Shown here one piece after another: positions 9,274 to 61,647 of a stretch of 64,000 nt of DNA. The stretch is from Ianthella basta (lineage: Eukaryota > Porifera > Demospongiae > Verongiida > Ianthellidae). The position numbers and the translations under genes are program-made. Each line of letters opens with the position of its first letter. The stretch's first letter is position 1. The stretch is from assembly GCA_964019415.1 (NCBI GenBank), contig OZ025868.1:5557371-5621370 (forward strand), read 5' to 3'. The notes under the pieces were generated by a model. That model saw only the letters and a list, made by a program, of their open reading frames with translations. It was not told the DNA's origin and searched no databases.

Positions 9274-12200
9274 CTAGCCTCTCGACCTCCTCCACTGCAA
9301 CATGGTAAAGTAGCAGATAACAGCAATAGCCTGTACGAGAGAGGAAGTGGATTCAAGCAATCATACACACATCCGTCTAACTCTCAGACAGGCAATTGCA
9401 ACACAAGAAGCTATTCATACAGTAGAATGTCTCAACCATGCAAAATACAATTCCTACCAATGTATTCCACATACAAAGGTGGCATAGCTAGCTACATAGC
9501 TGCAAGTGATACAAGAATGTTAGGAAGGCATGAGACATGATGCTCACAAAGTGGTGGCAGCTAGTCCTGCATGGTGCAAATTTCATTACATAAAAGCTAC
9601 AGTAAGAGCTGAGAATATAGCGCTACATTTTGGTTGCACTACAGTATTACTAATTATACAAACTACCACCACCATCCACCCACACGCAGCACTATACCAT
9701 GCTGTCTGACAGAGCATTCATATAACAGTGTAGACAATCAACTTGTAACAACTTGTCTGATATGTCTTTTACGCAAGGACAATGGGTTGCTCACATACTG
9801 CAAAGAAGCAATGGTAGACTCACCGCACTTATGGCAGAAAGAGTGGACAGACCAGTGCACTGGAAGGAAGCAGCTAATCCATAAAATGTGAAGAATGCCA
9901 CCACCTGAAACACAAGCTACAACAGCAATGCTAAGGTGATTGATAACATTGTGTGAAGACATGGGAGTGGAACTACAGTGGAACATGTTTGCTATTGTTT
10001 ATACATAGAGGACGTAGCTCAGCTGCCTGGTTACAGATAAAGTAGCTAGCAGTCTCAAAACTCCAAGTAGTACACTATCACACTGCAATGCACCTCTGAC
10101 ATACATCAAAACCAATCAGGTGCAGAAATCTCAAAGGTGACTGACTCAAACAGTTTAATGGCTGAATTAAGAATAATCGTTAGTACTTGTTGGTGCACGA
10201 AGTATTTCATAGCACAGGACAAACAATTGCAAAGGATACAATTGGTGAGCAGGTGATAATAAGCACTCGATCTTTCACTCCTCTGCACCAGAGGATGGAG
10301 TTGAATAGGAGTAGGCAGGTGAGGGAAAAGGAAAAGGCAATCTGGGATGGTACACCAACCCACAGGGCCATGTCAGCAGCATACCTATGCACAATGAAGA
10401 GTTGCATGTAATAACCTCAACATGGGACACCCACAGTGAGTTAACAGTACGGCACAAAGTAGACTTGTAATACTGCATGTAACCTTGTCTTGCCACTGAG
10501 GCCAAGATGATTGGGAAAGTATAGTATCCCCACAGCAATGAAAGTCTAAGCATTGTGCTATGTACGTACATTTAAAATGGGAATAGTATTAGTGTGCATA
10601 TATCACCTTGGACACTATTGACTTACTTTAGCCTAAAGGCAAACTTTCCGAAGTATAATTCATTGAAAAAACAGCTGTGGGCTGTAGGTAATATTATGGG
10701 GAACTCCACAAGAGCTGCTCCTCCAAACGCAAATGAAAGAATGCTTGACAGAACCATTATCTGCATTCAGAATAGACAAATACGTATGTGTATATATACA
10801 TAGCAACTAATGAAGGGCTGAAATAATGTCCTAGTGATCAAGTGCATGTTTCACCCTATTCACAAGTATGTATGACTGCATAGCACCACCTATTTCAATA
10901 TGTGAGTGGATTTGAGAAAAGGGAGCAACTTGTGCTATGTATAAAGTATCAGTACAGGTGAAAACATGCAAACGAGTCATGTTTCGGGTAAAGTCAAATT
11001 ACTACATCATGTGCACCTGTGGTATAGTCCCAACATACTGACCAAGTTTGGAACCCGTAGTCCTTTCTTGCACATCAAACCAGGAAGAATAGTAACGCCG
11101 TCACCGTGTTTACAGACATAATAACGGAAGGGTCACAGGCCGTTTTCTCATAATTGCAGTATTTTTGTACTTTAAGTGAGCGTATCTTGGGAACTGGACC
11201 AGCTATTGAAGCACAAGAAAGCGCAAGGAAGTGCTCATCTACTGTGCTTCCACCCAATACCACTAACTTAAAATTGGCAATTTGTGCGAATTGGTCCCTT
11301 TTCTCAAATCCACTCACATACAATAGTGTTTAACTTATAGGAATTCAAGTTTCAAAGGACACACATTCTGATTGATGCCACTGTGAATAGGCATAGTAAA
11401 AACATCGTGCACATTGGGTGTCCAAGTAATGATCAGATACACATGAATATTATTATTATGCTCAGTGATCAATATATTAAATTCTTCAAGAGGGCAGAGG
11501 CAATACAAGAAAGAAGGGTGAAGTATATTCTGTTAACATAAGGTTTGCTAAAGGGGGGATGTTCATTGCACAAGTACATACATTCACTAAAATCTAAATA
11601 ACACTTATGAGAAATGCCTAAGTTTGGCACAGCATAGTAGATCTGTCACGATCATTAGAGAATATACACGAAGGTGACTGCTGGGAATCACAGCAGATGT
11701 CCCAATGGACGGGAATATGGGCCTGAGGTTGATACATAGGTGAATGTGACTAATCAAGACAGCATCTGCTCCACTGATGTCTTGATCGGGCAAGTTCACT
11801 AGGACTGTAGCCCCTTCCATTAGGTCACTTGCTGATTATGCTCAAAATACACTGCAGACCATGGTATAACAACAGTGTGGTAATAAATGCATTACATAAA
11901 TGTACTTACTGTGAACAAGCCACAAACACATTTCCCATGCTTGAAGCACCACTGACAATGACCACTTGTTTCTGGCATCTCCTCAACCAGTGGAGTGTTG
12001 CTAGGTTCACTGGCTGAGAGAACTGACATTTCATGCAAGCCGCTATCAGAGAGGGGTACACTAGGAACAGTCTTCCCCTGTAGACGGAGCCTCAGATGTA
12101 CATGCTCTATGCGCTCCTTGAGATTCTTAACCTTCTGGTCGGATATAGAGCTCTGACTTACTAGCTCAGCTTTCATCTTGCTCATCCGCAGAGCCTCACT

Positions 12201-13181
12201 ATCCTTACTCTCCAAGTCCTTCTGCATACGCCACATTGCAAGCTGTACATTGCTGTCCTGCTCTTGTACAGAATAGCTCTTCAGCACAGTTTTCTCAACT
12301 CGCTTCATTTGAGGCAGAAGTGTACTACTTGTTGGGCGTGTACTTGCATCATCATCCAAGCACAATTTAATAACACCTTGGAATAACTTCTCTTCATCTT
12401 CTGAAAATAGCTCCATGTAGGGCGCACGTGTCTCCAGTTGAGAGTACACCACTGGGTCCTGTGTCTTATTACCTTTGGCTGCTGTTGACCTTGGAGTGAC
12501 TGGGGTGGGCCACTCGTGTGTGATGGCCATGATGATCACATTGCCGTAGGAGAACACATCGAGCTTGTCATCATATAGTAGTGGGTAACGCAATGCTTCA
12601 GGAGGCATGAACCCCGGTGTGCCCTTGATGGAGGAGCTACGTGTGAGTGAGGCTGCATCGATGGCCCTGGTCATACCAAAGTCGGTCAGCTTGGTCAGGT
12701 AGGTCACCTCGTTGACGAGGATGTTGTTGGGACTGAGGTCGTGATGCACCAACTTGGGGGAGTGGCTGTGAAGATACACCAGACCCTGGGCCACCTGACG
12801 GAGGATCACCACCTTGTTGATGAGGGGGAAATCTTCCTTTGCTGTTGACTCGAGCAGAGAGCGCAGACTGGTGTCCATCTTCTCCAGCACCATGACAGGG
12901 GTGTGGGAGGGGTCGAAGTAGATCCCCAGAAACTGGACAATTTGAGGGTGCCTCAAAGCAGACCACGTGGCGCACTCTTTCTCAAATGCTGTGATGAACG
13001 CTTGCTTCTCCTCCGCTGACAGTATCTCTTTGAAGATGTCGTGCATGAACTTCGCAGCGCAGGTCGTTCCGTTCCATTCCACTTCGAAAACTGTCCCAAA
13101 TGCACCCGCTCCGAGTCTCCGATCAGTCCTTCTGATGTCGTAGATCTTCAACGGAGCGAGCTCAACATCGAACTCAGCCAT
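9274..13181 (-). CDS. A1: TKL-like kinase fused to four-transmembrane domain, 5 exons, 562 aa
   Basis: Predicted join: 13181-11910, 10760-10627, 10384-10240, 9904-9824, 9330-9274. Exon 1 alone encodes residues 1-424. Kinase landmarks: glycine loop GAGAFG 24-29, Lys44 in CAAKF, Glu69 as likely helix-C Glu, HHDLSPNN 146-153 (Asp148, Asn153), DFG 167-169, PPE 193-195, Asp208 in DVFSYG. Residues ~300-375 form heptad-like coiled coil. Cys 409, 412, 418 and 420 sit just before TM1. Exons 2-5 give TM1 (~427-447), TM2 (475-501), TM3 (~510-531), TM4 (~539-557) and a basic end RRSRG. Donor of exon 1 is ACA|GTAAGT. All catalytic residues are present, so the kinase is probably active; HRD is HHD. Expected topology: kinase and C-terminus cytosolic. 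Serine/threonine specificity and the TKL group are inferred from overall motif style. Confidence 0.75.
11017..11107 (-). pseudogene. decayed alternative first exon of A1
   Basis: Counterpart of the intact 30-codon exons inside A3 (40114-40203) and A4 (57897-57986). Here the ATG is ACG, one extra base shifts the frame, and a TGA falls inside. The donor (CAG|GTGCAC) remains. It lies in A1 intron 1. Confidence 0.5.
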
Positions 13182-13536: not shown

Positions 13537-13761
13537 TCACTCTATCCACTGCAGTACAATCAGATAGCAGAGTAGAGCCAGTCCCTACAATGGAATAAAG
13601 CAGGAAGTTTGCATTAGCATATGCATATATCACAGGCTACACACCCCAGCTTGAACTGGTTGCTCTTTTCTGCTGATCAGCTAGTATTAGTTATCACATC
13701 ACCATAAGGATACTAACCAATTAATACACCCATCCACACACGCACATACATGCAAGTACGT

Positions 13762-13812
<51 letters not shown>

Positions 13813-13829
13813 CACACACACAAACACAC

Positions 13830-13908
<79 letters not shown>

Positions 13909-16900
13909 CAAACACACAAGCATATGCAAAACACATGTACTTGTATTAGCACAACCAAGATTTGGCTGTGAGGAGCTCATTAATAGGGTGAGCCAGCAGG
14001 TGGCAACAAGATTGGTGGCTCTATGGATAGCATGCAGAGACACCAGCTTCATCTACCCAGTTGCAGGGCCTCTCAGTAGGGGCATTCATCTATGGGCTTG
14101 CAAGACCCATGAGACGAGAGAGGTGAGGTATGGCCTTGAGTGACTGCTGTGGGTGACTACGTCAAAATACATAACTGTCCTGGACTCGTGGCTGTAGAGT
14201 GCACCACATAGGTGGCTAGCATAACTTGCAAAATTGGCAGTAAACACTGGGAAGTGTGCTAGCACTTAAGAGAGAATCACATGCACAAGTTGCTGTATTC
14301 TCCCTTGACTTGACTAGACTTGTAACCAACATAGTTTTCAAACCCCGTCCAGCTACCAGAATCGTTGGCTGCAGATCTGCCACCCTATGGTACATGCACA
14401 CACACACACATGCATATATGCGTGCACACACACACACTCTACAGCTCACCATGAAGAATACCGAAGGTAGGGCCATTGATAAAGGAGGTACTCCTCCAAA
14501 TACCAAGAAAGAGGGAATTCCACAGATTGTACAGTATGACACAGCTAGTACAATCACCTAACACATGGAGTTAAGGGTATTTACATATACTGAAGGAATA
14601 AGGTACGTATATACCACCCATAGCATCTCTCTCCTCTGCACCACTGCGAGAACCTGACAATCAGTGCAGTTGTGAGGACCACAGATAGAAGTATCTGTAT
14701 CACAGCTGTGGCAATCACACTTTGGTGAGACACACCTGGGGTTACTTCTAAGCCTGGAAATGAGCAGCTGCATCTACAAGGAGTAGTGAGACAAAGAAAT
14801 GCAAAGGAATTGGACTGAGTGAAATTCCATTGAAGTACATGTGAAATCCACATGGAATTGCATTCAAATTCTGAATTTCATCATTAAAATGGCTGGCTTT
14901 GTTAACAAAATACCAATGTCATTATTTTCATCTTGACACATGTACAATACGGACTCACTCCACATTAAATGGGAAAACCATTACTCTCTAAGTAAAACCT
15001 CAACTGAATTAGGTGCTTTGGGATTCTCAAATTTCCGGCCTACTTTAAACGTAATTTGAAAGAACATAATTATACATGCAGTTGCTTAGCATCTATTGAC
15101 AACATATTAGAAAAGTACTGCAGCTAAGTTGTACTACATTTGTAATTACCATGACAACCCCATCTTATATTAAAGGGGAGTTGGAGATATCACACTATTA
15201 GAGATACTTGGCTAGTTTGTCACTGGTAGTGTTTTGTCAAAAAATTTGCAAACCTGCCACACAGAAGCCAATGCCAAAGTGACTGTGGGTGACCTGTGGT
15301 CATTCTGTCGTCTTCCATATAGGGCCAAACAGCTGTCCGTGGCTCTTATATATCTAGATGGATGACTGGGGAGTTGATTGCTGGTTACCACTCAATAGGG
15401 GTGAAGGATCTGCATCACAGCCTCTTTGGCTTCAGCTTCAGTGTAGCCCTATACCAGTGATCAGGTAACTACCCATATTAGTACATCAGTCGTATGTCAG
15501 ACAGAGTCAAGTCAGTGAAACTAGACATCTAAAAGTTAATTAAAAACTGAAAATCCTGTTTGTATAACATCAGCTATTTAGAACTTTCATCTTTTGGCAT
15601 AACACCAAGCTGTAGCCATGGCAAATGCTGCATGCATACACAATGTACATGTGCCACTTACTGTCTGTAAACAGAGAAACTCTGCAAGTAGTCTGGCAGT
15701 GCTGTGCTGATTAGCGTCACAAATGCAAATGCAAATGCTATGGAGATGATGCTCAATATCGCCATGGACTGCAGAATGAACAAGTATACAAAATTGATTT
15801 ATACATACGTACATATGTCTGAATAGAGATAATGACAGCAAATACCTTTTGCATTCATACATGCAGTACACACTAGTAAATGCATGCAGTTCTCCAGGGA
15901 TGATGCACAACTGATAGTTAATATTATAATATATCAGTTTGCAGTCAAAGTATCAACCTGAGGTAGGGCTAGTTGTTGAGATCAGAAGACACGCACTAGA
16001 GCAGAGAGAGGCAGCGTGAACTGCAGCCCTCACACAATAGTAAGTACGGAAGATGCTTTCTTTGCAGCAGTTATAATATATTCCATAACTTTATAAGTCC
16101 ATCCACAATTTAAACATACAGACAAACATACATTATGGCACTAAGCAATTGGCACGATTTGGAAAAACTTAGCTAGCCAACTATAATACTAGCTATGCTT
16201 ACTGTAAACAAGCAACAGGCACACTTTCCCCCTTGGGTCAGTCCAGTAGGTGATTCTTCTGTTTCACGGTCAGTCTCAGCAACTGAGCTAGTCTCATGGA
16301 TTAGGAGTGAATCTGTCAGCGCTGAAGTCCAATGCCCGCTACTGGAGTCTTCAAGCTCAGTGGAACGCTCAAGCTGTGACTCTAGCTGGAGATGTTCCAG
16401 GTGCTGTTCAAGAATTCTTGCATTTGCTGAAAATTTTGTAATATTAGTTTGAAGACATTTAGTCTCTTGACTCATCATGGCAATCTCCGACTTCTTCTTC
16501 TGCACTGCCTTCTGCACTGCCTTCTGCACTGCCTTCTGCACTACCTTCTGCATGCGCCACATTGCTAGCTGAATGCTGTTTGCTTCTGTCTCTGCTGACA
16601 TGCCACTTTCCAAGACAGTCACCTCAATCTTCTTCATTTCAGCTAGTAGCATCGTGCTGGTTGGACGCATTTCTTCCTGATTCTCCAGGCAAAGTTTAGT
16701 TATTCTTTGTTTCTTCCTTTGAAAACTGCTCAAAATGATGCTCACACAGCTGAAATTCAGATACAATCTCAACCAGTGGCTCTCCTTCACCCATCAGCTG
16801 AGGTGTGGGCCACTGGTGGGTGATGACAGTGATGATCACATTGCCATATGCAAACACGTCCAGCTTGTCGTCATAACGTAAAGGAAAGCGAAGTGCCTCT

Positions 16901-17481
16901 GGAGCGACGAAACCCGGTGTGCCCTTGATGGAGGAGCTGCGTGTGGGTGAGGCTGCATCGATGGCCCTGGTCATACCAAAGTCGGTCAGCTTGGTCAGGT
17001 AGGTCACCTCGTTGACGAGTATGTTGTTGGGACTGAGGTCGTGATGCACCAACTTGGGGGAGTGGCTGTGAAGGTACACCAGACCCTGGGCCACCTGACG
17101 GAGGATCACCATCTTGTTGATGAGAGGAAAGTCTTCCTTTGGCGTCCCCTCGAGTAGCGATCGCAGACTGGCGTCCATTTTCTCCAGCACCATGACAGGA
17201 GAGTGGGAAGGGTCGAAGTAGATCCCTAAAAACTGGACAATTTGAGGGTATCTCAAAGCAGACCACGTGGCGCACTCTTTCTCAAACGCTGTGATGAACG
17301 CTTGCTTCTACTCAGCTGATAGTATCTCCTTGAAGATTTCGTGCATGAACTTCGCAGCGCAGGTCGTTCCGTTCCATTCCACTTCGAATACCGTCCCAAA
17401 TGCGCCGGCTCCGAGTTTTCGATCAGTATTTCTGACGTTGTGGATCCTCAACGGAGCGAAAGGCTGAACTTTAGAAGCCAT
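13537..17481 (-). pseudogene. B1: broken kinase-4TM gene
   Basis: Exon 1 17481-16203; exon 2 15768-15662 (TM1, SMAILSIISIAFAFAF); exon 3 from 14773 (TM2, 3' part missing); exon 4 14557-14450 (TM3, VIVLAVSYCTICGIP); exon 5 13584-13537 ([15 protein letters not shown]). Lesions relative to B2: an in-frame TAG at 17308-17310, where B2 has GAG, after residue 57; an 11-base deletion near 16705 that shifts the frame after KEETK; and a deletion near 14620 removing the exon 3 end and its donor. The coiled coil carries four AVQK-type units (about 16505-16550) against one in B2. The ATG of MASKVQ is taken as the start because the longer upstream frame begins at TTG, not ATG. Confidence 0.72.
13766..13903. 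repeat. (CA)n microsatellite
   Basis: CA array of about 138 bp with a few CG and AA interruptions, in B1 intron 4. Confidence 0.95.
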
Positions 17482-20593: not shown

Positions 20594-23500
20594 CTAGTAT
20601 CTCGACCTCCTCCACTGCAACATGGTAAAGTAGCAGATAACAGCAATAGCCTGCAAGAGAGAGGAAGTGGATTCAAGCAATCATACACACATCCGTCTAG
20701 CTAACTCTCACACAAGTAAGACATAATGTATGAGCTATTTATACAGTAGAATGTCTCACCTATGCAAGTTATATTATGTACAACTATTAAACAGGAAATG
20801 TTGCTAAAGTAATACACATACAAAGGTGACATACGTACAAGAACGTTAGGATGGCATGAGACAAAGTGGTGGCAGTCCATACTGTATGGTGCAAAGTCCA
20901 TTACATAAAAGACACAGGCATAGCTGGGAATACTGCTACTTTTCAGTTGCATTACAGTATTATACAAACTACCACCACCATCCACACACACGCAGTACTG
21001 CTATGCTGTCTAACAGAGCATTCATAGTAGTGTACACAACCAACTTGTAACATCTTATATATATATGTCTTTTATGCAAGGACAATAGATTACTCGTATA
21101 CTGCAAAGAGGCAATGGTAGACTCACCGCACTTATGGCAGAAAGAGTGGGCAGACCAGTGCACTGGAAGGGAGCAGCTAATCCATAAAATGTGAAGAATG
21201 CCACCACCTGAAACACAAGCTACAACAGCAATGCTAAGGCGGTGGATAACATTGTGTGAAGGAATGAGAGTGGAACTACAGTGGAACATGTTTGCTATTG
21301 TTTATACATAGAGTATGTAGCTCAGCTACCTGATTACAGATAAAGTAGATAGCAGTCTCAAAATTCCAAGTAGTACACCATCACACTGCATTGCACCTCT
21401 GACATCCATCTAAACCAATCAGGTGCAGAAGTCTCACAAGTGATTGATTCAAAAAAGTTAATGGCTGAAGTACAATCATTAGAATTTGTTGGTGCACAAA
21501 GTACTTCATAACACAGGGATTGTAAAGGATACAATTGGTGAGCAGGTGATAATAAGCACTCGATCCTTAACTCCTCTGCACCAGAGAATGGAGTTGAATA
21601 GGAGTAGGGAGGTGAGGGAAAAGGAAAGGCCAATCTGGCATGGTACACCAGTGAACAGGGCTATGGAAGCACTGGACCTACACACAAGGTAGAGTTAACA
21701 ACCACTGGGACACCAATAGTGAATCAATGGTATACTGCACACAGCAAACAGGTATGCTGTCTTGACAATGAGGTGTAGGTGATTGTGAAAGTTGGGTGAT
21801 ATTCTAGTTGTCACCAACAACAGTCAAAGCATTGAGCTACACGTGAGATAGGAATGGTATTAATGTGTGTCACCTTGGTAACCATTGACTTACATTAGCC
21901 GAGTGGGAAAAGCTGTACAAACATCAGAAAAGGCAACAACACCTATGACAATTTCCACTACGGCTGCTCCTCCAAACAGAATTGAAAGAAAGCTTGACAG
22001 CATCATTATCTGCATTCAGGGATACAAATATGGGCAAACTGTATGCCAAATACAGGTTGAAAACAAAATATTACATCATTCAAGGGCATTCATCCTGTGC
22101 ATAAAATTAAAGCATCTCTGTAAGCATAATACCGTATCCGCTCTAGAATTCGTCACCCCTAGTGCAGCAAATATTTCGTCTTTTGAAGCAATTAGAGTTG
22201 GAATGGAGAAGACCGTCGAAGGTGATGAATATTTAGAGTTTTTGGACGAAACATTAGAGTGAAGTTGAAACATTAGAGTACTGTCACCAACTGTAATACA
22301 GTTGTGTTATAGAAACTCGATCAAGCTTCAAGACGAGGAAAAATTCTAATACGTATGCTGTGCATAGCAAATATCTATATCACAAACATAAACATTGTGT
22401 GCATCAAGTGTCTATATGTAATGATCAATTACACAAACACCATTGTATGCTCAGGGCTGTACTTAGAAATTTCTTCAAGGGGCCAAACTGAGGTTCCAAG
22501 ATATGGGGCAGAGATGGGGGTGGTAGAGAGTTGCTGGGCAATACAAGAAAAACAGGGGGGTGGGGGGAGGAGACTATGCTGACATAAGGTTTGCTAAGGG
22601 GGTGGATGGAGATGAGACTATAACAGGGGGGTACAAAGTAAGTGGGGGGCTCATTGTACATTCACTAAAATCTACGTATATACAACTTATTATATTGAAA
22701 TGAATAAAGTTGGCACAGCACACTAGATCTGTTGATTGATATAGAATGATTGCAGTGTGCAGAATTACTTGGTGTGTAGAAGGATCATGAAAGTAATCAC
22801 AGCAAGGAGGGAATACGGAGCAGTATACTGAGAGGTGAATGTGACTAATCAAGGCAGTAATGGATCCAATGGTGTCCTGATTAGACATGTTCACCAATCA
22901 GTTTCAAGACTATAGCTAGTCCCAAAGATTAGGACGCCTGCTGTGATTACACTCATGACTCCTTCCACACTCACACTAGATCTGGTATGACACCAGTGTG
23001 GTAATGCTCTGTACTTACTGTGAACAAGCCACAAACACATCTCCCATGTTTGAAACACCACTGATAACGAACTTGTGTTTCCAGAATCTCTTCAACCAGT
23101 GGAGTGTTGCTGGGTTCACTGGCTGAGAGAACTGACATTTCATGCAAGCTGCTATCGGAGAGGGGTACACTAGGAACAGTCTTCCCCTGTAGACGGAGCC
23201 TCAGATGTACATGCTCTATGCGCTCCCTGAGATTCTTAACCTTCTGGTCGGATATAGAGCTCTGACTTACTAGCTCAGCTTTCATCTTGCTCATCCGCAG
23301 AGCCTCACTGTCCTTACTCTCCAAGTCCTTCTGCATACGCCACATTGCAAGCTGTACATTGCTGTCCTGCTCTTGTACAGAATAGCTCTTCAACACAGTT
23401 TTTTCAACTCGCTTCATTTGAGGCAGAAGTGTACTACTTGTTGGGCGTGTACTTGCATCGTCATCCAAGCACAATTTAATAACACCTTGGAATAACTTCT

Positions 23501-24290
23501 CTTCATCTTCTGAAAATAGCTCCATGTAGGGCGCACGTGTCTCCAGTTGAGAGTACACCACTGGGTTCTGTGTCTTATTACCTTTGGCTGCCGACGACCT
23601 AGGAATAACAGGGGTGGGCCACTCGTGTGTGATTGTCATAATGATGAGGTTGCCGTAGGAGAACACATCGAGCTTGTCATCATATTGTGGTGGGTAGTGC
23701 AAGGCTTCAGGAGGCATGAACCCCGGTGTGCCCTTGATGGAGGAGCTACGTGTGAGTGAGGCTGCATCGATGGCCCTGGTCATACCGAAGTCGGTCAGCT
23801 TGGTCAGGTAGGTCACCTCGTTGACGAGGATGTTGTTGGGAGTGAGGTCGTGATGCACCAACTTGGGGGAGTGGCTGTGAAGGTACACCAGACCCTGGGC
23901 CACCTGACGGAGGATCACCACCTTGTTGATGAGGGGAAAATCTTCCTTCGTTGTTGACTCGAGCAGTGAGCGCAGACTGGTGTCCATCTTCTCCAGCACC
24001 ATGACAGGGGTGTGGGATGGGTCGAAGTAGATCCCCAGAAACTGGACAATCTGAGGATGTCTCAAAGCAGACCACGTGGCGCACTCTTTCTCAAATGCTG
24101 TGATGAACGCTTGCTTCTCCTCCGCTGACAGTATCTCTTTGAAGATGTCGTGCATGAACTTCGCAGCGCAGGTCGTTCCGTTCCATTCCACTTCGAAAAC
24201 TGTCCCAAATGCACCCGCTCCGAGTCTCCGATCGGTCCTTCTGATGTCGTAGATCTTCAAAGGAGCGAGCTCAACATCGAACTCAGTCAT
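20594..24290 (-). CDS. A2: TKL-like kinase fused to four-transmembrane domain, 5 exons, 556 aa
   Basis: Predicted join: 24290-23019, 22009-21894, 21677-21533, 21207-21127, 20650-20594. Exon 1 is 1272 nt as in A1 and begins MTEFDVELAP. Catalytic motifs intact: GAGAFG, Lys44, HHDLTPNN (Thr where the other copies have Ser), DFG, PPE. Exon 2 is shorter than in A1 (116 nt) and encodes IMMLSSFLSILFGGAAVVE as TM1. Exon 3 carries TM2 and the WCRGVKDR segment; exon 4 TM3; exon 5 ends CYFTMLQWRRSRY. All phases match A1. Intron 1 lacks the alternative first exon found in A3 and A4. No lesion seen. Confidence 0.74.
22300..22960. other. A2 intron 1 segment with G-rich tract
   Basis: Part of A2 intron 1 not shared with A1 in simple alignment. 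It holds G-rich stretches (AACAGGGGGGTGGGGGGAGG) and no supported exon. Confidence 0.35.
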
Positions 24291-24645: not shown

Positions 24646-24967
24646 TCACTCCATCCACTGCAGTACAATCAGATAGCAGAGTAGAGCCAGTCCCTACAAT
24701 GGAATGAAACAGGAAGTTTGAGTTTGAATATCACAGGCTACACACCTTTAATAGAACTGCATGTTTACTCCTTTCATCTGCTGATCAGCTAGTATTAGCT
24801 ATTACATCGATCACCATAAGGATACTAACCAATTATTAATACACCCATCCACACACACACGCACACGCACATACACACACACACACACACGCACACACAC
24901 ACACACACACATACACACACATACACACACACACATTCACGCACACACACACACCGCACACGCACGC

Positions 24968-25030
<63 letters not shown>

Positions 25031-28000
25031 CATGTACACATGTACAAACACACAAGCATGTGCAACACGCGTGTACTTGTATTAGCACAACCAAGACTTG
25101 GCTGCATGGAGCTCCCTAACAGGCTGAACCAGCAGGTGGCAGCAAGATTGGTGGCTCTATGGGTAGCATGCAGAGACACCAGCTTCATCTACCCAGTTGC
25201 ACGGTTCCTCGGTACAGTAGGGGCATTCATCTATGGGCTTGCAAGACCCATGAGATGAGAGAGGTGGGTTACGGCTGTGGATGACGACATCAGAGTACGT
25301 AACTGTCCTGGACTCGTGGCTGTAGAGTACCACACATAGCTTGCAAAATTGGCAGTAAACACTGGGAAGTGTGCTAGCACTTAAGAGAGAATCACATGCA
25401 CAAGTTGCTGTATTCTCCCTTGGCTTGACTAGACTTATACCCATGCAACCAGGTTTTCAACCTTCCAACTACCAGAATCGTTGGCTGCAGATCTGCCACC
25501 CTTTTGGCCTATTCACTCACACAGTTTCTGCTACGTAATACTGCACACACACACACACACACACATTAGTCTAGCATATACAACTATACTCACCATAAAA
25601 GAGACTGAGGGTATGGCCATTGCTACAGGAAGTGGTGTCAATAATGCGGGGATCCCACAGGTTGTGCAGAATGACACAGCTAACACAATGACCTAGCACA
25701 TGGTGTTAAGGAAACATGTATTCAAGGAATAAGGCAACAACCAAAGGTACCAATATGGTAACATACCAACCATGGCTCTTACAAGAACCCAGCCATCAAA
25801 TTCGGCTTAACATAATATTCAAGTACTGTAACATTGGGATACAAATAGAGAAGGTTCAAGGATACAACTGGTGAACAGATAAGGGTGAGTCCTTGGCGTC
25901 TCTCTCCTCTGCACCACAGCAAGAACCTGACAATCAGTGCAGTTGTGAGGACCACAGACAGAAGTACCTGTATCACAGCTGTGGTAATCACACTTTGGTG
26001 GGACAGACCTGGGGTTGTCTGTAAGCCTGGAAATGAGCAGCTGCATCTACAAGGAGTAGTGAGACAAAGAAATGCAAAGGAATTGGACTGAGGGAAATTT
26101 GAAGTACATGTGAAATCTATATGGAATTGAATTCAAATTCTGAATTTCATCATTAAAATGGCTTTGCTTGTTAACAAAATACCAATGTCATTATTTCATC
26201 TTGACACATGTACAATACGGACTCACTCCACATTAAATGGGAAAACTCTTGTTCTCTAGGTATAACCTCAACTGAATTAGGTGCTTTGGGATTCTCAAAT
26301 TTCCAGCCTACTTAAAACGTAATTTGAAAGAACATTATTATACATGCAGTTGCTTAGCATCTATTGACAACATATTTGAAAGGTACAGCAGCTAATTTGT
26401 ACTACATATGTAATTACCATGGCAACCCCATCCTTCATTGAAGGGGAGTTGGAGATATCACACTATGAGGGATACTTGGCTAGTTTGTCACTGGTAGTGT
26501 TTTGCCAAACAATTTGCCAGCCTGCCACACAGAAGCCAATGCCAAAGTGACTGTGGGTGACCTGTGGTCATTCCGTCGTCATCCATATGGGGCCAAACAG
26601 CTGTCCGTGGCTCTTATATATCTAGATGGATGACTGGGGAGTTGATCGCTGGTTACCACTCAATAGGGCTGAAGGATCTGCATCACAGCCTCTTTGGCTT
26701 CAGCTTCAGTGTAGCCCTATACCACCCATATTAGTACATCAGTCGTATGCCAGACAGAGTCAAGTCAGTGAAACTAGACACCCATACAAAAACTGAAAAT
26801 TGAAAATCCTGTTTTTATAACATCAATCATTTAGAACTTTAATCTTTCTGCATAAAACAAACTAGTACTGTCTGTATCCGTGACAAGTGCTGCATGCATG
26901 CACAATGTACATGTACCACTTACTGTCGGTAAACAGAGAAACTCTGCAAGTCGGGTGCATATGGCAGTTCCACCGTGCTGTATAGTGTCGCAACTGCAAA
27001 TGCTATGGAGATGGTGCTCAGAATCAGCATGGACTGCAGAATGAACAAGTATGTATATACATATTGAGATAATGACAGCAATTACCTTTTACATTCATAC
27101 ACACCAGGAAATGCATGTCGTTCCCCAGGGATGATGCAAGATTGGTACAGTTAATATATATCAGCTCGCAGTCAAAGTATCAACCTGAGCATGGACTAGT
27201 TGCTGAGATCAGAAGGAGCTAGAGCTGAGAGAGGCATCAGGAACTGCAGCCCTCACACAATAGTAAGTACGGAAGTCTTGTTTTCTTTGCAGCAGTTATA
27301 ATATATTCCATAATTTTATAAGTCCACCCACTATTTAAACATACAGACAAACATGCTTATAATGGCACTAAGCAATTGGCACAATTTGGAAAACTAAGCT
27401 AGCCAACTGCATATACACTTACTGTAAACAAGCAACAGGCACACTTTCCCTTTTGGAAACAGCACTGGGTCAGTCCAGTAGGTGACTCTTCTGTTCCATG
27501 ATCAGTCTCAGCAACTGAGCTAGTCTCATGGACTAGGAGCGAATCTGTCAGAGCTGAAGTCCAGTGCCCACTACTGGAGTCTTCAAGCACAGTGGAACGC
27601 TCAAGCTGTGACTCTAGCTGGAGATGTTCCAGGTGCTGTTCAAGAATTCTTGCATTTGCTGAAAATTTTGTAATATTAGTTTGCAGACTTCGAGTCTCCT
27701 CACTCATCATGGCAATCTCCGACTCCTTCTTCTGCACTGCCTTCTGCATGCGCCACATTGCTAGTTGAATGCTGCTAGCTTCTGTCTCTGCTGACATGCT
27801 ACTTTCCAAGACAGTCACCTCAATCTTCTTCATTTCAGCTAGTAGCATCGTGCTTGTTGGACGCATTTCTTCCTGATTCTCCAGGCAAAGTTTAGTTATT
27901 CCTCTAAAAGCCTTTGTTTCTTCCTTTGAAAACTGCTCGAAATGATGCTCACGTAGCTGAAATTCAGACACAATCTCAACCAGTGGCTCTCCTTCACCCA

Positions 28001-28688
28001 TCAGCTGAGGTGTGGGCCACTGGTGGGTGATGACTGTGATGATCACATTGCCGTATGCAAACACATCGAGTTTGTCGTCATAACGTAAAGGAAAGCGAAG
28101 TGCCTCTGGAGCGACAAACCCCGGTGTGCCCTTGATGGATGAGCTACGTGTGAGTGAGGATGCATCGATGGCCCTGGTCATACCAAAGTCGGTCAGCTTG
28201 GTCAGGTAGGTCACCTCGTTGACGAGGATGTTGTTGGGACTGAGGTCGTGATGCACCAGCTTGGGGGAGTGGCTGTGAAGGTACACCAGACCCTGGGCCA
28301 CCTGACGGAGGATCACCACCTTGTTGATGAGAGGAAAGTCTTCCTTTGGCGTCGTCTCGAGGAGCGATCGCAGACTGGCGTCCATTTTCTCCAGCACCAT
28401 GACAGGGGTGTGGGATGGGTCGAAGTAGATCCCCAGAAACTGGACAATCTGAGGATGTCTCAAAGCAGACCACGTGGCGCACTCTTTCTCAAACGCTGCG
28501 ATGAACGCTTGCTTCTCCTCCGCTGATAGTATCTCCTTGAAGATTTCGTGCATGAACTTCGCAGCGCAGGTCGTTCCGTTCCATTCTACTTCAAATACTG
28601 TCCCAAATGCACCCGCTCCGAGTTTTCGATCAGTTTTTCTGACCTCGTAGATTTTCAACGGAGCGAAAGGCTGAACTTTAGAAGCCAT
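24646..28688 (-). CDS. B2: TKL-like kinase fused to four-transmembrane domain, 5 exons, 567 aa
   Basis: The only intact B copy. Predicted join: 28688-27423, 27033-26924, 26046-25866, 25692-25594, 24693-24646; phases 0, 2, 0, 0 as in A and C. Exon 1 encodes 422 residues from [14 protein letters not shown] 24-29, Lys44, HHDLSPNN 146-153, DFG 167-169, APE in [14 protein letters not shown]. The C-lobe insert and coiled coil differ strongly from A. Juxtamembrane Cys cluster [13 protein letters not shown]. Exon 2 TM1 ([17 protein letters not shown]); exon 3 a Cys pair, then TM2 ([17 protein letters not shown]) and WCRGER; exon 4 TM3 ([15 protein letters not shown]); exon 5 [15 protein letters not shown]. 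Donor of exon 3 is GTATCC, as in A and C. The open frame reaches 15 nt further 5' only to a TTG, so the MASK ATG is preferred. Confidence 0.74.
24858..25027. repeat. (CA)n microsatellite, interrupted
   Basis: CA array of about 170 bp with CG, TA and TTCACG interruptions, in B2 intron 4. Confidence 0.9.
25157..25444 (-). other. candidate Cys-rich exon in B2 intron 4
   Basis: A minus-strand frame with many cysteines ([34 protein letters not shown]) ends at a TAG. B3 (42874 to about 43130) and B4 (61224 to about 61480) keep the same frame and stop despite a 9-nt in-frame deletion; B1 has lost it. It could be an alternative 3'-terminal exon or a relic. No family recognised and the acceptor is uncertain. 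Confidence 0.35.
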
Positions 28689-38332: not shown

Positions 38333-41300
38333 CTAGCCTCTCGACCTCCTCCACTGCAACATGGTAAAGTAGCAGATAACAGCAATAGCCTGCAAGAGAG
38401 AGGAAGTGGATTCAGGCAATCATACACAGATCTGTTTAACTCTCAGACAGGCAATTGCAACACAAGAAGCTATTCATACAGTAGAATGTCTCAACCTTAC
38501 AAAGTACAATTCCTACCAATGTATTTCACATACAAATTAAAGGTGACATAGCTACGTAGCTAGCTACGTACATAGCTACAAGTCATACAAGAACTTAAGA
38601 TGGCACGAGATCTGATGCTAACAAAGTGGTGGCAGTACTAGTTCATACTGCATGGTGCAAAGTTCATTACATAAAAGCTACAGAAATAGCTGAGAATATA
38701 GCGCTACATTTTGGTTGCACTACAGTATTACTAATTATACAAACAACCACCACCTTCCACCCACACACAGCACTATAGCTACCACACTGTGACTGTCTGA
38801 CAGAGCATTCATATAATAGTGTAGACAATCAACTTGTAACAACTTGTCTGATATGTCTTTTATGCAAGGACAATGGATTGCTCATAATACTGCAAAGAGG
38901 CAATGGTAGACTCACCGCACTTATGGCAGAAAGAGTGGACAGACTAGTGCACTGGAAGGGAGCAGCTAATCCATAAAATGTGAAGAATGCCACCACCTGA
39001 AACACAAGCTATAACAGCAATGCTAAGGCAGTGGATAACATTGTGTGAAGACTTGGGAGTGGAACTACAGTGGAATCTGTCTGCTATTGTTAATACATAA
39101 TATATAGAGTATGTAGCTCAGCTACCTGGTTACAGATAAAGTAGCTATATAGCAATCTCAAAACTCCATTTAATACACTATCACACTGCAATACACCTCT
39201 GACATCCATCTAAACCAATCAAGTGCAAAGTCTCACAGGTGACTGATTCAAAGAGGTTAATGGCTGAATTAAGTATATTCATTGGTACTTGTTGGTGCAC
39301 AAAGTACTTCATAACACAGGGCAAACAATTGCAAAGGATACAATTGGTGAGCAGGTGATAATAAGCACTCGATCCTTCACTCCTCTGCACCAGAGGATGG
39401 AGTTGAATAGGAGTAGGGAGGTGAGGGAAACGGAAAAGGCAATCTGTGATGATACACCTACCGTCAGGGCCATAGAAGCATTGATCCTATGAGCAATGAA
39501 GAGCTGCATGTAATAACCCCGGCCAGCATAACCTCAACATGGGACACCCACAGTGAATTAACAGTACGGCACAATGTGGACTTGTAGCATTGTATGTAAT
39601 CCTGTTTTGCCACTGATGAGGCAGAGACGATTGTGAAAGTATATTATGGGTGATATAATCCCCACAACAATGAAAGTCTAAGCATTGTGCTATGTACGTA
39701 CATTTAAAATGGGAATAGTATTATATCACCTTGGACACTATTGACTTACCAAAACTTAAAGGCAACCCTTCCAAAGATAAATTCATTCAAAACACAGCGT
39801 GTAGGAAATATGCCGTTCACCATAAAGGCTGCTCCTCCAAATAGAAATGAAAGAATGCCTGACAGCACCATTATCTGCATTCAGAGTAGACAAATATAAT
39901 ACATATGTGTATATATACATAGCAACAAATGAAGGGTTGAAACAATGTCATACATAATGTCATAGTGATCAAGGGCATGTTTCACCCTGTTTCAATATGT
40001 GAGTGGATTTGAGAATAGGGACCAATTTGTGCAATGTATAAAATGTCAGTATAGGTGAAAGCACACTAACGAGTCATGTTTCTGGTAAAGTCGGATTACT
40101 ACATCATGCGTACCTGTGGTATAGTCCCAACATCCTGGCCAGTTTGGAACCCGTAGTCGTTTCCTGCACAGCAAACCACGAAGAATAGCAATGCCGTCGC
40201 CATGTTTACAGATATAATACCAGAAGGGTTACGGGCTATTTTCTCATAATTGCAGTATTTCGTACTTTGAGTGAGCGTATCTCGGGAACTGGACCAGCTA
40301 TTGAAGCGCAACAAAGTGCAAGGAATAGCTCATCTACTGTGCTTCCACTCAGCACCACTAACTTGAAATCAGCAATTTGTGCGAATTGGTCCCTTTTCTC
40401 AAATCCATTCACGTATAATAGTGTTTAACTTACAGAAATTCAAGTTTCAAAGGACAAACATTCTGATGCACTGTGAATAGGCACAGTGAAAACATCGTGC
40501 GCATTGGGTGTCCAAGTAATGATCAGATACACATGACTGCTATTGTATGGTCAGTGCTCAATATATGAAATTCTTCAAGAGGGCGGGGCAATACAAGAAA
40601 TACGTCTTTCGGTTTGTTAAAGGTTCATTGTTCATTGTTCATTGTACATGTACAAACATTCACTGAATTATAAATAACACGTTCACTTATCAGACTGTAG
40701 CCCCTTTCATTGGGTCCCTTGCTGTGATTATGCTCAAAATACACTGCAGACCATGGTATAACAACAGTGTGGTAATTAATGCATTACATAAATGTACTTA
40801 CTGTGAACAATCCACAAACAATTTTCCCATGTTTGAAGCACAACTGACAACGACCACTTGTTTCTGGGATCTCCTCAACCAGTGGAGTGTTGCTGGGCTC
40901 ACTGGCTGAGAGAACTGACATTTCATGCAAGCCACTATCAGAGAGGGGTACATTGGGAACAATCTTCCCCTGTAGACGGAGCCTAAGCTGAACGTCCTGA
41001 ATGCGCTCCCTGAGATTCTTAACCTTCTGGTCGGATATAGAGCTCTGGCTTACTAGCTCAGCTTTCATCTTGCTCATCCGCAGAGCCTCACTGTCCTTAC
41101 TCTCCAAGTCCTTCTGCATACGCCACATCGCAAGCTGCACATTGCTGTCCTGCTCTTGTATGGAATAGCTCTTCAGCACAGTTTTCTCCACCCGCTTCAT
41201 TTCAAGCAAAATTGTATTACTTGCTGGACGTTTGCTAGCATCATCATCCAGACACAACTCAATCACACCCTGGAATAACTTAACTTCATATTCTGAAAAT

Positions 41301-42073
41301 AACTGAAGGTAGGGTGCACGTGTTTCCAGTTGAGAGTATGCCACTACACGCTGTGTCTTCTTTCCTTCAGTTGCAGATGGTCTTGGAATGACTGGGGTGG
41401 GCCACTCATGTGTGATGGCCATAATGATGAGGTTGCCGTAGGAGAACACATCGAGCTTGTCATCGTATTGTGGTGGGTGGCGCAATGCTTCAGGAGGCAT
41501 GAACCCCGGTGTGCCCTTGATGGAGGAGCTACGTGTGAGTGAGGCTGCATCGATGGCCCTGGTCATACCGAAGTCGGTCAGCTTGGTCAGGTAGGTCACC
41601 TCGTTGACGAGGATGTTGTTGGGACTGAGGTCGTGATGCACCAACTTGGGGGAGTGGCTGTGAAGGTACACCAGACCCTGGGCCACCTGACGGAGGATCA
41701 CCACCTTGTTGATGAGGGGAAAATCTTCCTTTGGCGTCGTCTCGAGTAGCGATCGCAGACTGGCGTCCATCTTCTCCAGCACCATGACAGGAGTGTGTGA
41801 GGGATCGAAGTAGATCCCTAGAAACTGGACAATCTGAGGATGTCTCAAAGCAGACCACGTGGCGCACTCTTTCTCAAACGCTGTAATGAACGCTTGCTTC
41901 TCCTCTGCTGATAGTATCTCTTTGAAGATGTCGTGCATGAACTTCGCAGCGCAGGTCGTTCCGTTCCATTCCACTTCAAATACCGTCCCAAATGCCCCCC
42001 ATCCGAGTTTCCGATCGGTCCTTCTGATGTCGTAGATCTTCAACGGAGCGAGCTCAACTTCGAAATCAGCCAT
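38333..42073 (-). CDS. A3: TKL-like kinase fused to four-transmembrane domain, 5 exons, 559 aa
   Basis: Predicted join: 42073-40802, 39874-39750, 39486-39342, 38996-38916, 38389-38333. Exon 1 encodes MADFEVELAP and the kinase. The glycine loop is GWGAFG, with Trp where A1, A2, A4 and B have Ala. Lys44, [11 protein letters not shown] and PPE are present. The C-lobe segment after residue 230 differs from A1/A2 and matches A4. TM1 IMVLSGILSFLFGGAAF; TM2 MALTVGVSSQIAF with an NAS sequon just before it; TM3 VVAFFTFYGLAAPF; end CYFTMLQWRRSRG. A possible alternative first exon lies in intron 1 (40114-40203). Confidence 0.74.
40114..40203 (-). CDS. A3 alternative first exon, 30 codons
   Basis: ATG, 30 open codons (MATALLFFVVCCAGNDYGF then QTGQDVGTIPQ) and donor CAG|GTACGC, ending in phase 0, the phase of A3 exon 2. 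Initiation here would give a 165-residue kinase-free 4TM protein, comparable to C0. The hydrophobic start could act as a signal or extra helix. A4 keeps it intact (57897-57986); A1 has a decayed version. No transcript evidence available from sequence alone. Confidence 0.42.
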
Positions 42074-42684
42074 CGTCTATAAGCAAATTTTGCGGTCGCG
42101 TGAACTAGGCCCCGTAACTGCACTATATATAGCTGTCTATCATGTGGAAAGCAGGATTTGGGAATAAATTATAATTTTATGCCATTTGATCTGATCGATC
42201 TGCGGTATTATTGCAAGTTGCATAAGTTTCATGGCGTGTATGTATACAGCCATCAAAATTCATTAAACAACATTACATACTGGAGTCATTTTATAGTCAT
42301 AACATCCAAATTGCTAGTCCACTACCTCATTCATGTTACGTCTATCTAACACAGCCTACACACATTATGCAAATATAAGGAACTGCAGCTGTTACATGTA
42401 GACACTAAAATGTGCTGTCAAGACAGCAGCAGCTATAGACAGCTACAGACAGGTAGCACTTCAAAAGTCACTCTATCCACTGCAGTACAATCAGATAGCA
42501 GAGTAGAGCCAGTCCCTACAATGGAATAAGGCAGGAAGTTTGAGTTTGAATGTCACGGGCTACACACCCTTACTAGAACTGTTTGCTCCTTTCATCTGAT
42601 CTGCTAGTATTAGTTATCACATCACCATAAAGATACTAACCAATTAATACACCCATCCACACACGCACATACATGCAAGTACAT

Positions 42685-42686
<2 letters not shown>

Positions 42687-42764
<78 letters not shown>
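42687..42764. repeat. (CA)n microsatellite
   Basis: CA array in B3 between exon 5 and the Cys-rich candidate exon. Confidence 0.95.
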
Positions 42765-42769
<5 letters not shown>

Positions 42770-43218
42770 TGCACACACACATGTACTTGTACTAGCACAA
42801 CCAAGATTTGGTTGTGTAGAGCTCATTAATATATAAGGTGAGTCAGCAGGTGGCAACAAGAACATCAGTGGCTCTATGGGTAGCATGTAGAGACACCAGC
42901 TTCATCTACCCAGTTGCACGGTCCCACAGTGCAGTAGGGGTATTTATCTATGTTCTTGCAAGACCCATGAGACGAGAGAGGTGGGGTACGGCTGTGGATG
43001 ATGATATCAGAATACGTAACTGTCCTGGACTCGTGGCTGTAGAGTACTCCACATAGCTTGCAAAATTGGCAGTAAACACTGGGAAGTGTGCTAGAGGAAT
43101 CACATGCACAAGTTGCTGCATATATTCTCCCTTGGCTTGGTTTTCAAACCCCCTCCAGCTACCAGAATTGTAGGCTGCAGATCTGCCACCCTTTTGGCTT
43201 ATTCAATGGTGCTCGTAC

Positions 43219-43323
<105 letters not shown>

Positions 43324-46300
43324 GTTAAGGGTATCACATATACTGAAGGAATAAGGTACGTATATACCACCCATAGCTTGGCTAATCATGTCACTACAAG
43401 ATCACCACAATTATGTACATGCATATCAAACTCAGCACAACATAATCCAAGTACAGAGAGAGGGTTCAAGGATACAATTGGTGAACAGATGAGGGTGAGT
43501 CCTTGACGTCTCTCTCCTCTGCACCACAGCAGAAATCATGACAGTCAGTGCAGTTGTGAGGACCACAGACAGAAGTATCTGTATTGCAGCTGTGGCATTC
43601 AAACTTTGATGAGGATGATCTGGGGTTGCTTCTATGTAAGCCCTGAAATGAGCAGCTGCATCTACAAGGAGTAGTGAGACAAAGAAATGCAAAGGGATTG
43701 GACTGAGTGAAATTCCATTGAAGTACATGTGAAATCCACATGGAATTGCATTCAAATTCTGAATTTCATCATTAGAAAAGGCTGGCTCGCATGTTAACAA
43801 AATACTAATGTCATTATTTCATCGTGACACATGTACAATATGGACTCACTCCACATTAAATGGGAAAACTCTTGCTCTCTAAGTATAACCTCAATAGAAT
43901 GAGGTCCCTTGGGATTCTCAAATCACGGGCCTACTTTAAACATAATTTGAAAGAACATAATTATACATGCAGTAGCTTAGCATTTATTGGCAATATATTA
44001 GAAAAGTACAGCAGCTATATAAATTGTACTACATACGTAATTACCATGACAACCCCATTCTTCACTGAAGGTGAGTTGGAGATATCACACTATGAGGGAT
44101 ACTTGGCTATAATTTGTCACTGGTAGTGTTTTGTCAAACAAGCCTGTCACACTGAAGCCAATGCCAAAGTGACCTGTGGTCACTCCCCCGTCCTTCATAT
44201 AGGGCAAAACAGCTGTACGTGGCTCTGATATATCTAGATGGATGACTGGGGAGTTGATCGCTGGTTACCACTCAACAGGAGTGAAGCATCAACATCACAT
44301 CCTCTTTGGCATCAGCTACAGTGTAGCCCTATACCAGTGATCAGGTAACTACCCATATTAGTACAGCAGTCGTATGCCAGACAGAGTCAAGTCAGTGAAA
44401 CTAGACACCTAAAAGTATTATTAAAAACTGAAAATCCTGTTTGTATAGCATCAGCTATTTAGAACTTTCATCTTTCGGCATAACAACAAACTGTAGCCAT
44501 GGCAAATGCTGCATGCATATACCATGTACATGTGCCACTTACTGTGTGTAAAAAGTTCTGAAAGACCGTTGGTAGTTTTACCGTGCTGGATAGCGTCGCA
44601 AATGCAAAATTTAATGCTATGGAGATGATGCTCAGGATCACCATGGACTGCAGAATGAACAGATACGTATACCACCCGTTATAGCACATCAGTCGTATCT
44701 CAGACAGAGTCAAGTCAGTAAAACTAGACACCTAAAAGTAAAGTGAAAATTGAAATCCTGTTTTTATAACACCAGCCATTTAGAACTTTCATCTTTCTGC
44801 ATAACAACAAACTGTCTGAATGTTGAGATAATGACAACAAATACCTTATGCATTCATACAGTACACACCATGCAGTAAATGCATGCAGTTCTCCAATGAT
44901 GATGCACGAATGATAGTTAATAATGTAGTGAAAATATCAACCTGGGTTAGTTGCTGAGATCAGAAGGAGCTAGAGGAGAGAGAGGCATCGTGAACTGCAG
45001 CCCTCACACAATAGTAAGTACGTAAGATGCTTTCTTTGCAGCAGTTATAATATGTTCCATAATTTTATAAGTCCACCCACAATTTATAAATACAGACAAA
45101 CATACATAATGGCACTAAGCAATTGGCACGATTTGGAAAAACTAAGCTAGCCTACTGCATATATACTTACTGTAAACAAGCAACAGGCACACTTTCCCCG
45201 TTGGAAACAGCACTGGGTCAGTTCAGTAGGTGCCTCTTCTGTTGCATGATCAGTCTCGGCCATGGCACTGGTCTCATGGACTAGGAGTGAATCTGTCAGA
45301 GCTGAAGTCCAATGCCCACTACTGGAGTCTTCAAGCACAGTGGAACGCTCAAGCTGTGACTCTAGCTGGAGATGTTCCAGGTGCTATTCAAGAATTCTTG
45401 CATTTGCTGAAAATTTTGAAATATTAGTTTGAAGACTTCGCGTCTTCTCACTCATCTTGGCAATCTCCGACTCCTTCTTCTGCACTGCCTTCTGCATGCG
45501 CCACATTGCTAGCTGAATGTTGTTTGCTTCTGTCTCTACAGCTATGCCACTTTCCAAGATAGTCACCTCGATCTTCTTCATTTCAGCTAGTAGCATTGTG
45601 CTGGTTGGATGCATTTCTTCCTGATTCTCCAGGCAAAGTTTAGTTATTCCTCCAAAAGCCTTTGTTTCTTCCTTTGAAAACTGCTCGAAATGATGCTCAC
45701 GTAGCTGAAATTCGGATGCCATCTCAACCAGTGGTTCTCCTTCGCCCATCAGCTGAGGTGTGGGCCACTGGTGGGTGATGACTGTGATGATCACATTGCC
45801 GTATGCAAACACGTCCAGTTTGTCGTCATAACGTAGGGGATAGCGAAGTGCCTCTGGAGCGACAAACCCCGGTGTGCCCTTGATGGATGAGCTACGTGTG
45901 AGTGAGGCTGCATCGATGGCCCTGGTCATACCAAAGTCGGTCAGCTTGGTCAGGTAGGTCACCTCGTTGACGAGGATGTTGTTGGGACTGAGGTCATGAT
46001 GCACCAACTTGGGGGAGTGGCTGTGAAGGTACACCAGACCCTGGGCCACCTGACGGAGGATCACCACCTTGTTGATGAGGGGAAAGTCTTCCTTTGGCGT
46101 CGTCTCGAGTAGCGATCGCAGACTGGCGTCCATCTTCTCCAGCACCATGACGGGAGTGTGGGAAGGGTCGAAGTAGATCCACAGAACTGGACAATCTGAG
46201 GATGCCTCAAAGCAGACCACGTGGCGCACTCTTTCTCAAACGCTGAGACGAACGCTTGCTTCTCCTCCGCTGATAGTATCTCCTTGAAGATTTCGTGCAT

Positions 46301-60947: not shown

Positions 60948-61077
<130 letters not shown>

Positions 61078-61568: not shown

Positions 61569-61572
61569 ACGC

Positions 61573-61644: not shown

Positions 61645-61647
<3 letters not shown>

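Follow-up and report, generated by a model that had tools for sequence, protein, structure and literature searches.

Predicted TKL-like kinases with a C-terminal four-helix tail in a tandem array of the sponge Ianthella basta

Introduction

Nearly all membrane kinases of animals place the sensor first and the kinase last, and receptor tyrosine kinases, like plant receptor-like kinases, join a large ectodomain at the N terminus through a single helix to a kinase at the C terminus. Tetraspanin, MS4A, and MARVEL proteins combine four helices and short ends with a larger loop, and to our knowledge no such family carries a kinase. Kinases fused to several membrane helices have also been described. 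The available text of one report covers the GPCR-TKL/K proteins of acanthoecid choanoflagellates (GPCR, G protein-coupled receptor; TKL, tyrosine kinase-like), which combine a seven-transmembrane domain with a C-terminal kinase, mentions similar fusions in oomycetes and amoebozoans, and gives its authors' view that GPCR-kinase fusions likely arose repeatedly (PMC12716839). For an oomycete, 99 transmembrane kinases, all TKL and with one to nine predicted helices, are set out in the available text of a second report (PMC3019232). Here we analyze a 64,000-nucleotide stretch of the Ianthella basta genome (contig OZ025868.1, positions 5,557,371 to 5,621,370; hereafter the window), which holds part of a tandem array of TKL-like kinase exons followed by small exons encoding hydrophobic segments. 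We give a probability of about 0.83 to the reading that each intact unit is a five-exon gene for a multipass membrane protein kinase, and our preferred view of its product is a TKL-like receptor kinase with inverted domain order and a diversifying outer loop.

Results

The A1 unit runs on the minus strand from an ATG at 13181 to a stop codon ending at 9274, exactly the limits given in an earlier note made from the letters of the window. Its five exons have phases 0, 2, 0, and 0, with the 424 codons of the kinase exon joined in phase by four small exons, and the joined frame of 566 amino acids contains a single stop, the terminal one. The five intact copies that the same note counted in the window were recovered, since A2 (560 amino acids), A3 (563), A4 (563), and B2 (567) likewise gave joined models without internal stops, while B1, B3, and B4 are not intact (Table 1). 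Joined frames were also obtained for A5, A6, and A7, which lie beyond the window. Type A and type B tails are 37% identical, yet their exon phases are the same. Exon 2 varies in length (134, 116, 125, 128, 110, and 107 nucleotides) through differing indels, but every length is 2 modulo 3, and the chance of five multiples of three is about 1 in 240 if the indels are independent. Since the frame is kept despite these indels, and both frame and splice sites of exon 2 are kept in 7/7 A copies aligned, the pattern goes beyond chance.

The A1 kinase matched the Pfam Pkinase profile (PF00069) with an E value of 1.7e-36 over profile positions 4-258 of 263. The catalytic Lys, HHD-NN, and DFG motifs were present in all 25 full stop-free kinase exons read (of 37), and the glycine-rich loop in 24 of them. 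The catalytic loop of the array kinases reads HHD instead of HRD, which we take to make them non-RD in the sense used for plant immune receptors. The closest chains in the PDB were two of CTR1, then EGFR, WNK, a LysM receptor kinase, and BRI1, with TAK1, RIPK3, MLK4, and IRAK4 close behind, and we describe the kinase as TKL-like. The linker after the kinase has coiled-coil character as judged by eye, and the last 17 residues of exon 1 contain two to six Cys in the 25 exons, a cluster that may be acylated. In a kinase tree, 26 array kinases, including one on the small contig C79, fell on one side of a branch separating them from five outside relatives with support of 100/100, although the long branch of one relative (L073) may join falsely; the A group received support of only 90/90.

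The searched genome comprised 209 Mb in 96 contigs. A search with the B2 kinase exon gave at least 99 places; among the matches listed, 36 lay at C1:5569280-5808498 (C1 being the contig of the window), each of them on the minus strand, with one more on C79. A further kinase fragment at 5655229 brings the C1 array to 37 kinase exons, again all on the minus strand. A search with the A1 tail (E up to 10) gave 61 places. Of these, 57 were in the C1 array, without exception on the minus strand, and the other four comprised two on C79 and single matches on C2 and C3 (the latter at E 5). By identity to A1 and B2, or, for sequences read incompletely, by identity to B2 only, 20 of the array kinases were typed as A and 17 as B. 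The truncated copy at 5804773 was assigned to B by its HEWPTP motif, as its 88% identity to B2 spans only a part shared by A and B, and the kinase at 5687726 was assigned to A by identity and tree position, though our labelling rule gave B.

Several features of the array argue that the kinase and tail exons are joined, as the earlier note had supposed. The first tail exon 3' of the kinase was of type A in 20/20 A intervals and of type B in 14/17 B intervals. The three remaining B intervals, read to 0, 40, and 26%, gave no tail match, so that no mismatch of the first tail exon was found, and the B assignment of intervals 5789507 and 5655474 is based on one exon each. Because consecutive A-A units exist, with their order unchanged, an alternation of types does not explain this match. 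Of the 31 kinase exons whose ends are known, 30 are directly followed by a GTAAG donor (with T as the next base in 27, G in 2, and C in 1), and the exception is a 246-base fragment. Counting only exons found by similarity search with near-complete ends, acceptors were present at exon 2 in 12/12 A and 10/10 B copies, at exon 4 in 17/17 A copies (at the corrected place) and 4/4 B copies, and at exon 5 in 16/16 A copies (orphan copies included) and 13/13 B copies; the exon 3 donor GTATCC occurred in 26/27 copies and exon 4 donors in 21/21. No tail exon was found on the opposite strand in the part of the array that was read (188,652 of 254,630 bases, window included). Taken together with the A1 helices that run across three exon junctions, these data make it highly likely that the kinase and four-helix exons form one gene. 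A retrocopy with joined exons would be proof of splicing, but none was seen, the multi-exon matches of the A1 tail search containing stops.

Two placements were rejected. An order with the helices first, in which the tail exons would belong to the next kinase downstream, was discarded because of the exon 5 stop, the ATG of the kinase exon, and the A-A order. For exon 4 of the A copies, an acceptor at the AG next to GTGGTG (A1 9904) was discarded, that AG being missing in more distant A copies. The AG 12 nucleotides upstream (A1 9916) is kept in 17/17 type-A copies with the frame open in A1-A4, aligns with exon 4 of B2, and would serve A7, in which the nearer AG is lost; this is very probably where exon 4 begins in type A.

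Plain hydropathy gave four segments in A1-A5, A7, and B2. By itself this carries little weight, since shuffling the residues of the A1 tail likewise yielded at least four hydrophobic stretches in 17% of cases. The position of the segments relative to the exons is the stronger point: segments 1, 3, and 4 lie across exon junctions in A1, A3, and A4. Helix 1 straddles exons 1 and 2 in A1, A3, A4, and B2, while the best-scoring stretch of A2 lies inside exon 2; helix 3 straddles exons 3 and 4 in A1-A4, and in B2 by one residue only; and helix 4 straddles exons 4 and 5 in all five intact copies of the window. Thus, where the earlier note had placed four transmembrane helices in four small exons, the four hydrophobic stretches and four small exons are both present, but there is not one helix per exon. 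The proposed inner loop has three Lys/Arg in 8/8 proteins checked, loop 2 has none in A1-A7, and the C-terminal tail of the A copies (QWRRSR) is basic, which together suggest that both ends are inside; the kinase and both ends would then be cytosolic, with loops 1 and 2 outside or lumenal. N-glycosylation sequons occur in loop 1 of A3, A4, and A7.

In profile searches of the protein parts, a check that the earlier note had proposed for the joined protein, the kinase was matched in Pfam and the tail had no significant match. The best Pfam match of the A tail was a phage holin at an E value of 0.4, below the cut-off, and the B tail had none. The tail matched nothing in NCBIfam, a prokaryote library, or among PDB chains at E values up to 10, and Pfam recognized no receptor domain.

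The kinase is under strong constraint. Among A1, A2, A3, A5, A6, and A7 (A4 was omitted as a near copy of A3), the ratio of nonsynonymous to synonymous differences (pN/pS) was 0.20 (0.15-0.27) for the kinase and 0.16 for the linker, compared to 1.32 (0.98-1.80) for loop 1; these figures and the distances below used the older exon 4 boundary, which omits 12 nucleotides. Amino-acid identity was 0.36 in loop 1 vs. 0.91 in the kinase. The proportion of differing sites was 0.44 and 0.29 in the two pieces of loop 1, compared to 0.11-0.26 in the four introns of the same units, and was 0.058 for the remainder of exon 3 and 0.034 and 0.018 for exons 4 and 5, respectively. Since loop 1 diverges more than the introns, more than a mere lack of constraint appears to be involved, and diversifying selection on loop 1 is likely, though not proven. 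For type B, the loop part of exon 2 had a distance of 0.22, compared to 0.14, 0.09, and 0.13 in introns 1, 2, and 4 and 0.23 in intron 3 (few sites), among three copies of which two (B1 and B3) are broken; the exon 4 value was not used because B3 lacks a proper exon 4.

Across all copies, third positions made up 0.38-0.43 of the differences in exons 3-5, compared to 0.34-0.35 in intron 3. Stops were present in 0/17 exon 4 copies, 0/27 and 0/24 exon 5 copies, and 3/27 and 2/26 exon 3 copies, compared to 12/27 and 11/26 intron stretches, with the A and B sets overlapping in these comparisons. Among the membrane segments, pN/pS was lower only in the inner loop (0.09) and helix 3 (0.44), both with wide intervals. 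Because pN/pS and third positions of close copies are weak here, the case for constraint on the tail rests on the low distances, the open frames, and the all-copy comparison.

How the kinase and tail exons are used could be explained in other ways. If the units were pairs of neighboring genes, one for a soluble kinase that terminates close to where exon 1 does and one for a separate four-helix protein encoded by exons 2-5, they might have been kept together by tandem duplication. ATG codons just before and within the start of A1 exon 2 would allow a separate short transcript, and read-through of the A1 donor reaches a stop after five codons. However, this arrangement gives no role to the donor directly after exon 1, exon 2 is preceded by AG in 22/22 copies checked, the last residues of exon 1 form part of helix 1 in A1, A3, A4, and B2, and the unit order is constant in consecutive A-A units, so that we consider it quite improbable. 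Alternative splicing that yields a soluble kinase as well as the membrane form would be helped by the coding of the whole kinase with its linker in exon 1 alone; it is unlikely in our view, as the CxCxLFT end of exon 1 belongs to helix 1 in most copies modelled. Lastly, the array might consist mostly of dead copies, relics of a formerly active family, given that B1, B3, and B4 are broken, that at least five other array kinase stretches are partial (5804105, 5788479, 5750511, 5655229, and 5790171), and that 5746311 has a stop. The 25 full kinase exons without stops and with their catalytic motifs kept, and the low kinase pN/pS among six A copies, make this explanation hardly plausible.

Some evidence weighs against our preferred reading of the units as genes for kinases with a four-helix tail and a diversifying outer loop. 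The topology is based on plain hydropathy, by which A6 has five segments and segments 3 and 4 of B2 overlap; the B2 tail (QWME) is not basic; loop 1 of A1, A3, A4, and A7 has three Lys/Arg; and the exon 3 donor GTATCC is presumably weak relative to the usual donor consensus. The pN/pS interval of loop 1 just includes 1, in a gappy part of the alignment, and among close A copies pN/pS was 0.99 for helix 1, 4.13 for helix 2 (few silent changes), 1.19 for loop 2, and 0.91 for helix 4, with wide intervals. Variable sites in exons 2-5 of close copies showed no third-position excess, which slightly lowered our estimate that kinase and tail form one gene. Exons picked by similarity gave pooled pN/pS of 0.27-0.80 for exons 2-5 and a median of 0.91 for type-B exon 3, the pairwise values being set aside as biased by the picking. 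In addition, pS is low in the last exons, a pattern suggestive of gene conversion, which could homogenize all but loop 1 without any selection for diversity. The helices might do no more than anchor the kinase to the membrane, with loop 1 unconstrained rather than selected for diversity. This explanation fits the loop 1 interval, the possible homogenization of the remainder, and the Pfam result on receptor domains, but the excess of loop 1 divergence over that of the introns, with frame and splice sites kept, speaks against it; we regard it as a substantial possibility that nevertheless falls short of even odds.

Table 1. Coordinates of the exons and degenerate units, numbered from the first position of the window.
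Feature	Position	Strand	Description
A1 exon 1	11910..13181	minus	TKL-like kinase domain; linker resembling a coiled coil (by eye); juxtamembrane Cys cluster; CVCGLFT end, then donor GTAAGT
A1 exon 2	10627..10760	minus	putative remainder of helix 1, then the beginning of variable loop 1
A1 exon 3	10240..10384	minus	putative loop 1 end, helix 2, inner loop CRGVKDR, helix 3 start; donor GTATCC
A1 exon 4	9824..9916	minus	acceptor corrected to 9916; putative remainder of helix 3, loop 2, helix 4 start
A1 exon 5	9274..9330	minus	putative helix 4 end, basic tail QWRRSRG, stop
A2 exon 1	23019..24290	minus	kinase
A2 exons 2-5	20594..22009	minus	22009-21894, 21677-21533, 21219-21127, 20650-20594
A3 exon 1	40802..42073	minus	kinase; glycine-rich loop GWGAFG
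A3 exons 2-5	38333..39874	minus	39874-39750, 39486-39342, 39008-38916, 38389-38333
A4 exon 1	58585..59856	minus	kinase
A4 exons 2-5	56116..57657	minus	57657-57533, 57269-57125, 56791-56699, 56172-56116
B2 exon 1	27423..28688	minus	kinase; CACCLFT end, then GTAAGT
B2 exons 2-5	24646..27033	minus	27033-26924, 26046-25866, 25692-25594, 24693-24646
B1 unit, degenerate	13537..17481	minus	kinase exon broken; exon 2 15768-15662, exon 3 shortened near 14700, exon 4 14557-14450, exon 5 13584-13537
B3 unit, degenerate	42471..46440 (upper end approximate)	minus	kinase frame broken
B4 unit, degenerate	60737..64000	minus	stop in kinase match, no exon 4 found; kinase exon extends past the window

Elsewhere in the same genome, TKL-like relatives with an N-terminal kinase show 44-54% kinase identity (47-54% in the five sampled), and the five sampled carry HHDLSPNN or HHDLSTNN. 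The kinase open frame of L070, L072, and L073 contains a long coiled-coil-like stretch, as judged by eye. The A1 tail had no match at the loci of these outside relatives. Frames downstream of the kinase match NHL repeats in L072 (E 6.6e-28), Ras in L071 (3.2e-26), and DUSP in L073 (4.1e-08). A further kinase piece is present in L070, and long frames in L069; L072, L073, and L071 are possible modular kinase fusions. If these domain frames belong to the kinase genes, the four-helix tail would be one of several modules on this kinase exon. Clustered kinase exons were also observed on C3, C5, C11, C14, and other contigs (at least 129 matches, 127 of 2243 candidates scored), and the kinase expansion is genome-wide. 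Viral contigs gave no match to the kinase exon.

Within the window, two copies of a roughly 15-kb block that contains kinase units share 97% identity (27061-42206 and 44820-59991, about 17.8 kb apart). This repeat is a recent segmental duplication, and it is the reason why A3 and A4 are close copies. Extra tail exons occur in some intervals, including second copies of the type-A exon 5, an additional type-A exon 3, and two B-type matches late in A intervals. An orphan A-type exon 5 (LAVFCYFNMLQWRR) lies at 17792-17742 on the minus strand, just before the B1 kinase, and similar extras occur elsewhere in the array. Frames with multiple hydrophobic stretches and stops at 17900-19800, 29000-30800, and 46700-48600 (minus), between A tails and B kinases, had no significant Pfam match and are perhaps the relic of a multi-helix receptor. 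The overlapping frames at 33973-34834 and 51753-52614 are near-identical copies, and the one frame searched had no Pfam match; we take their Cys/His spacing to recall the end of a retroelement reverse transcriptase.

Far from the array, an exon-3-like stretch was found at C2:6712057 (L021:1510-1650), with no match to exons 2, 4, or 5 within 1.5 kb on either side. The genome further gave 34 Wnt family matches, compared to none in 14 control genomes, with a tandem Wnt-like cluster at C16:1991483-2026924; the Wnt matches mark the genome as that of an animal. A relative of cathepsin L (L077) has Ser at the place of the catalytic Cys, which we assume to be silicatein-like and which points to a siliceous sponge as the likely source.

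Discussion

In the model that we propose, a cytosolic N-terminal kinase is followed by a linker, a Cys cluster, and four C-terminal helices. The variable loop 1 would meet a ligand or partner, this contact would reorient an oligomer of helix bundles, and the kinases, brought together via the linker, could then trans-phosphorylate on Ser/Thr and signal onward. The tandem array would thereby offer many loop variants on one output module. Taken on its own, a receptor role seems to us an evenly balanced proposition, and we think the odds are poor for any one class of ligand (immune or self/non-self, for example). It is conceivable, though doubtful, that inverted tetraspan receptor kinases are a new class of animal receptor and that a germline array of dozens of them, with a conserved cytosolic kinase and a diversifying outer loop between helices 1 and 2, provides a repertoire for recognizing microbes, chemicals, or self/non-self outside the Toll, NLR, Ig, and GPCR families.

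If the model is correct, a kinase-first array with four-helix tails would show that an early-branching animal solved receptor signaling in a separate way, and the combination of a constant kinase and a rapidly changing loop would permit testable guesses on how animals that lack adaptive immunity achieve recognition. A single genome may also have linked one type of kinase exon to C-terminal modules of quite different kinds.

The architecture predicted here resembles GPCR-TKL/K proteins in uniting a TKL-like kinase and a multipass membrane domain in one protein, but it differs from them, as they are defined in the available text of that report, in its N-terminal kinase, its four C-terminal segments, and a tail without a significant Pfam match (PMC12716839). 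With the transmembrane TKL kinases of oomycetes it shares a TKL-type kinase with membrane helices; most of those carry signal peptides or signal anchors, with examples that have extracellular domains, and no N-terminal kinase with four C-terminal helices is among those described in the available text (PMC3019232). A kinase-first, four-helix order is likewise not described in the available text of three further papers (PMC7385117, PMC8242945, and PMC8662651). Our literature search on sponge kinases and this architecture, in which subscription papers and supplements were largely outside the scope, retrieved no kinase with a C-terminal four-helix domain among the 10 to 26 best-ranked papers per query, out of sometimes hundreds, and this absence is weak evidence of novelty. 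As far as Pfam, PDB sequences, and the literature search reach, with prokaryote and virus collections as the sequence sets covered besides this genome, the suggestion of the earlier note that such kinases form a distinct type of membrane signaling is supported. The tail resembles tetraspanin, MS4A, and MARVEL proteins in its four helices, short ends, and larger loop, without a significant match to Pfam or the PDB. Like receptor tyrosine kinases and plant receptor-like kinases, the predicted proteins are membrane kinases in which the outer part varies and the kinase is conserved; they differ from receptor tyrosine kinases in domain order and in the number of helices.

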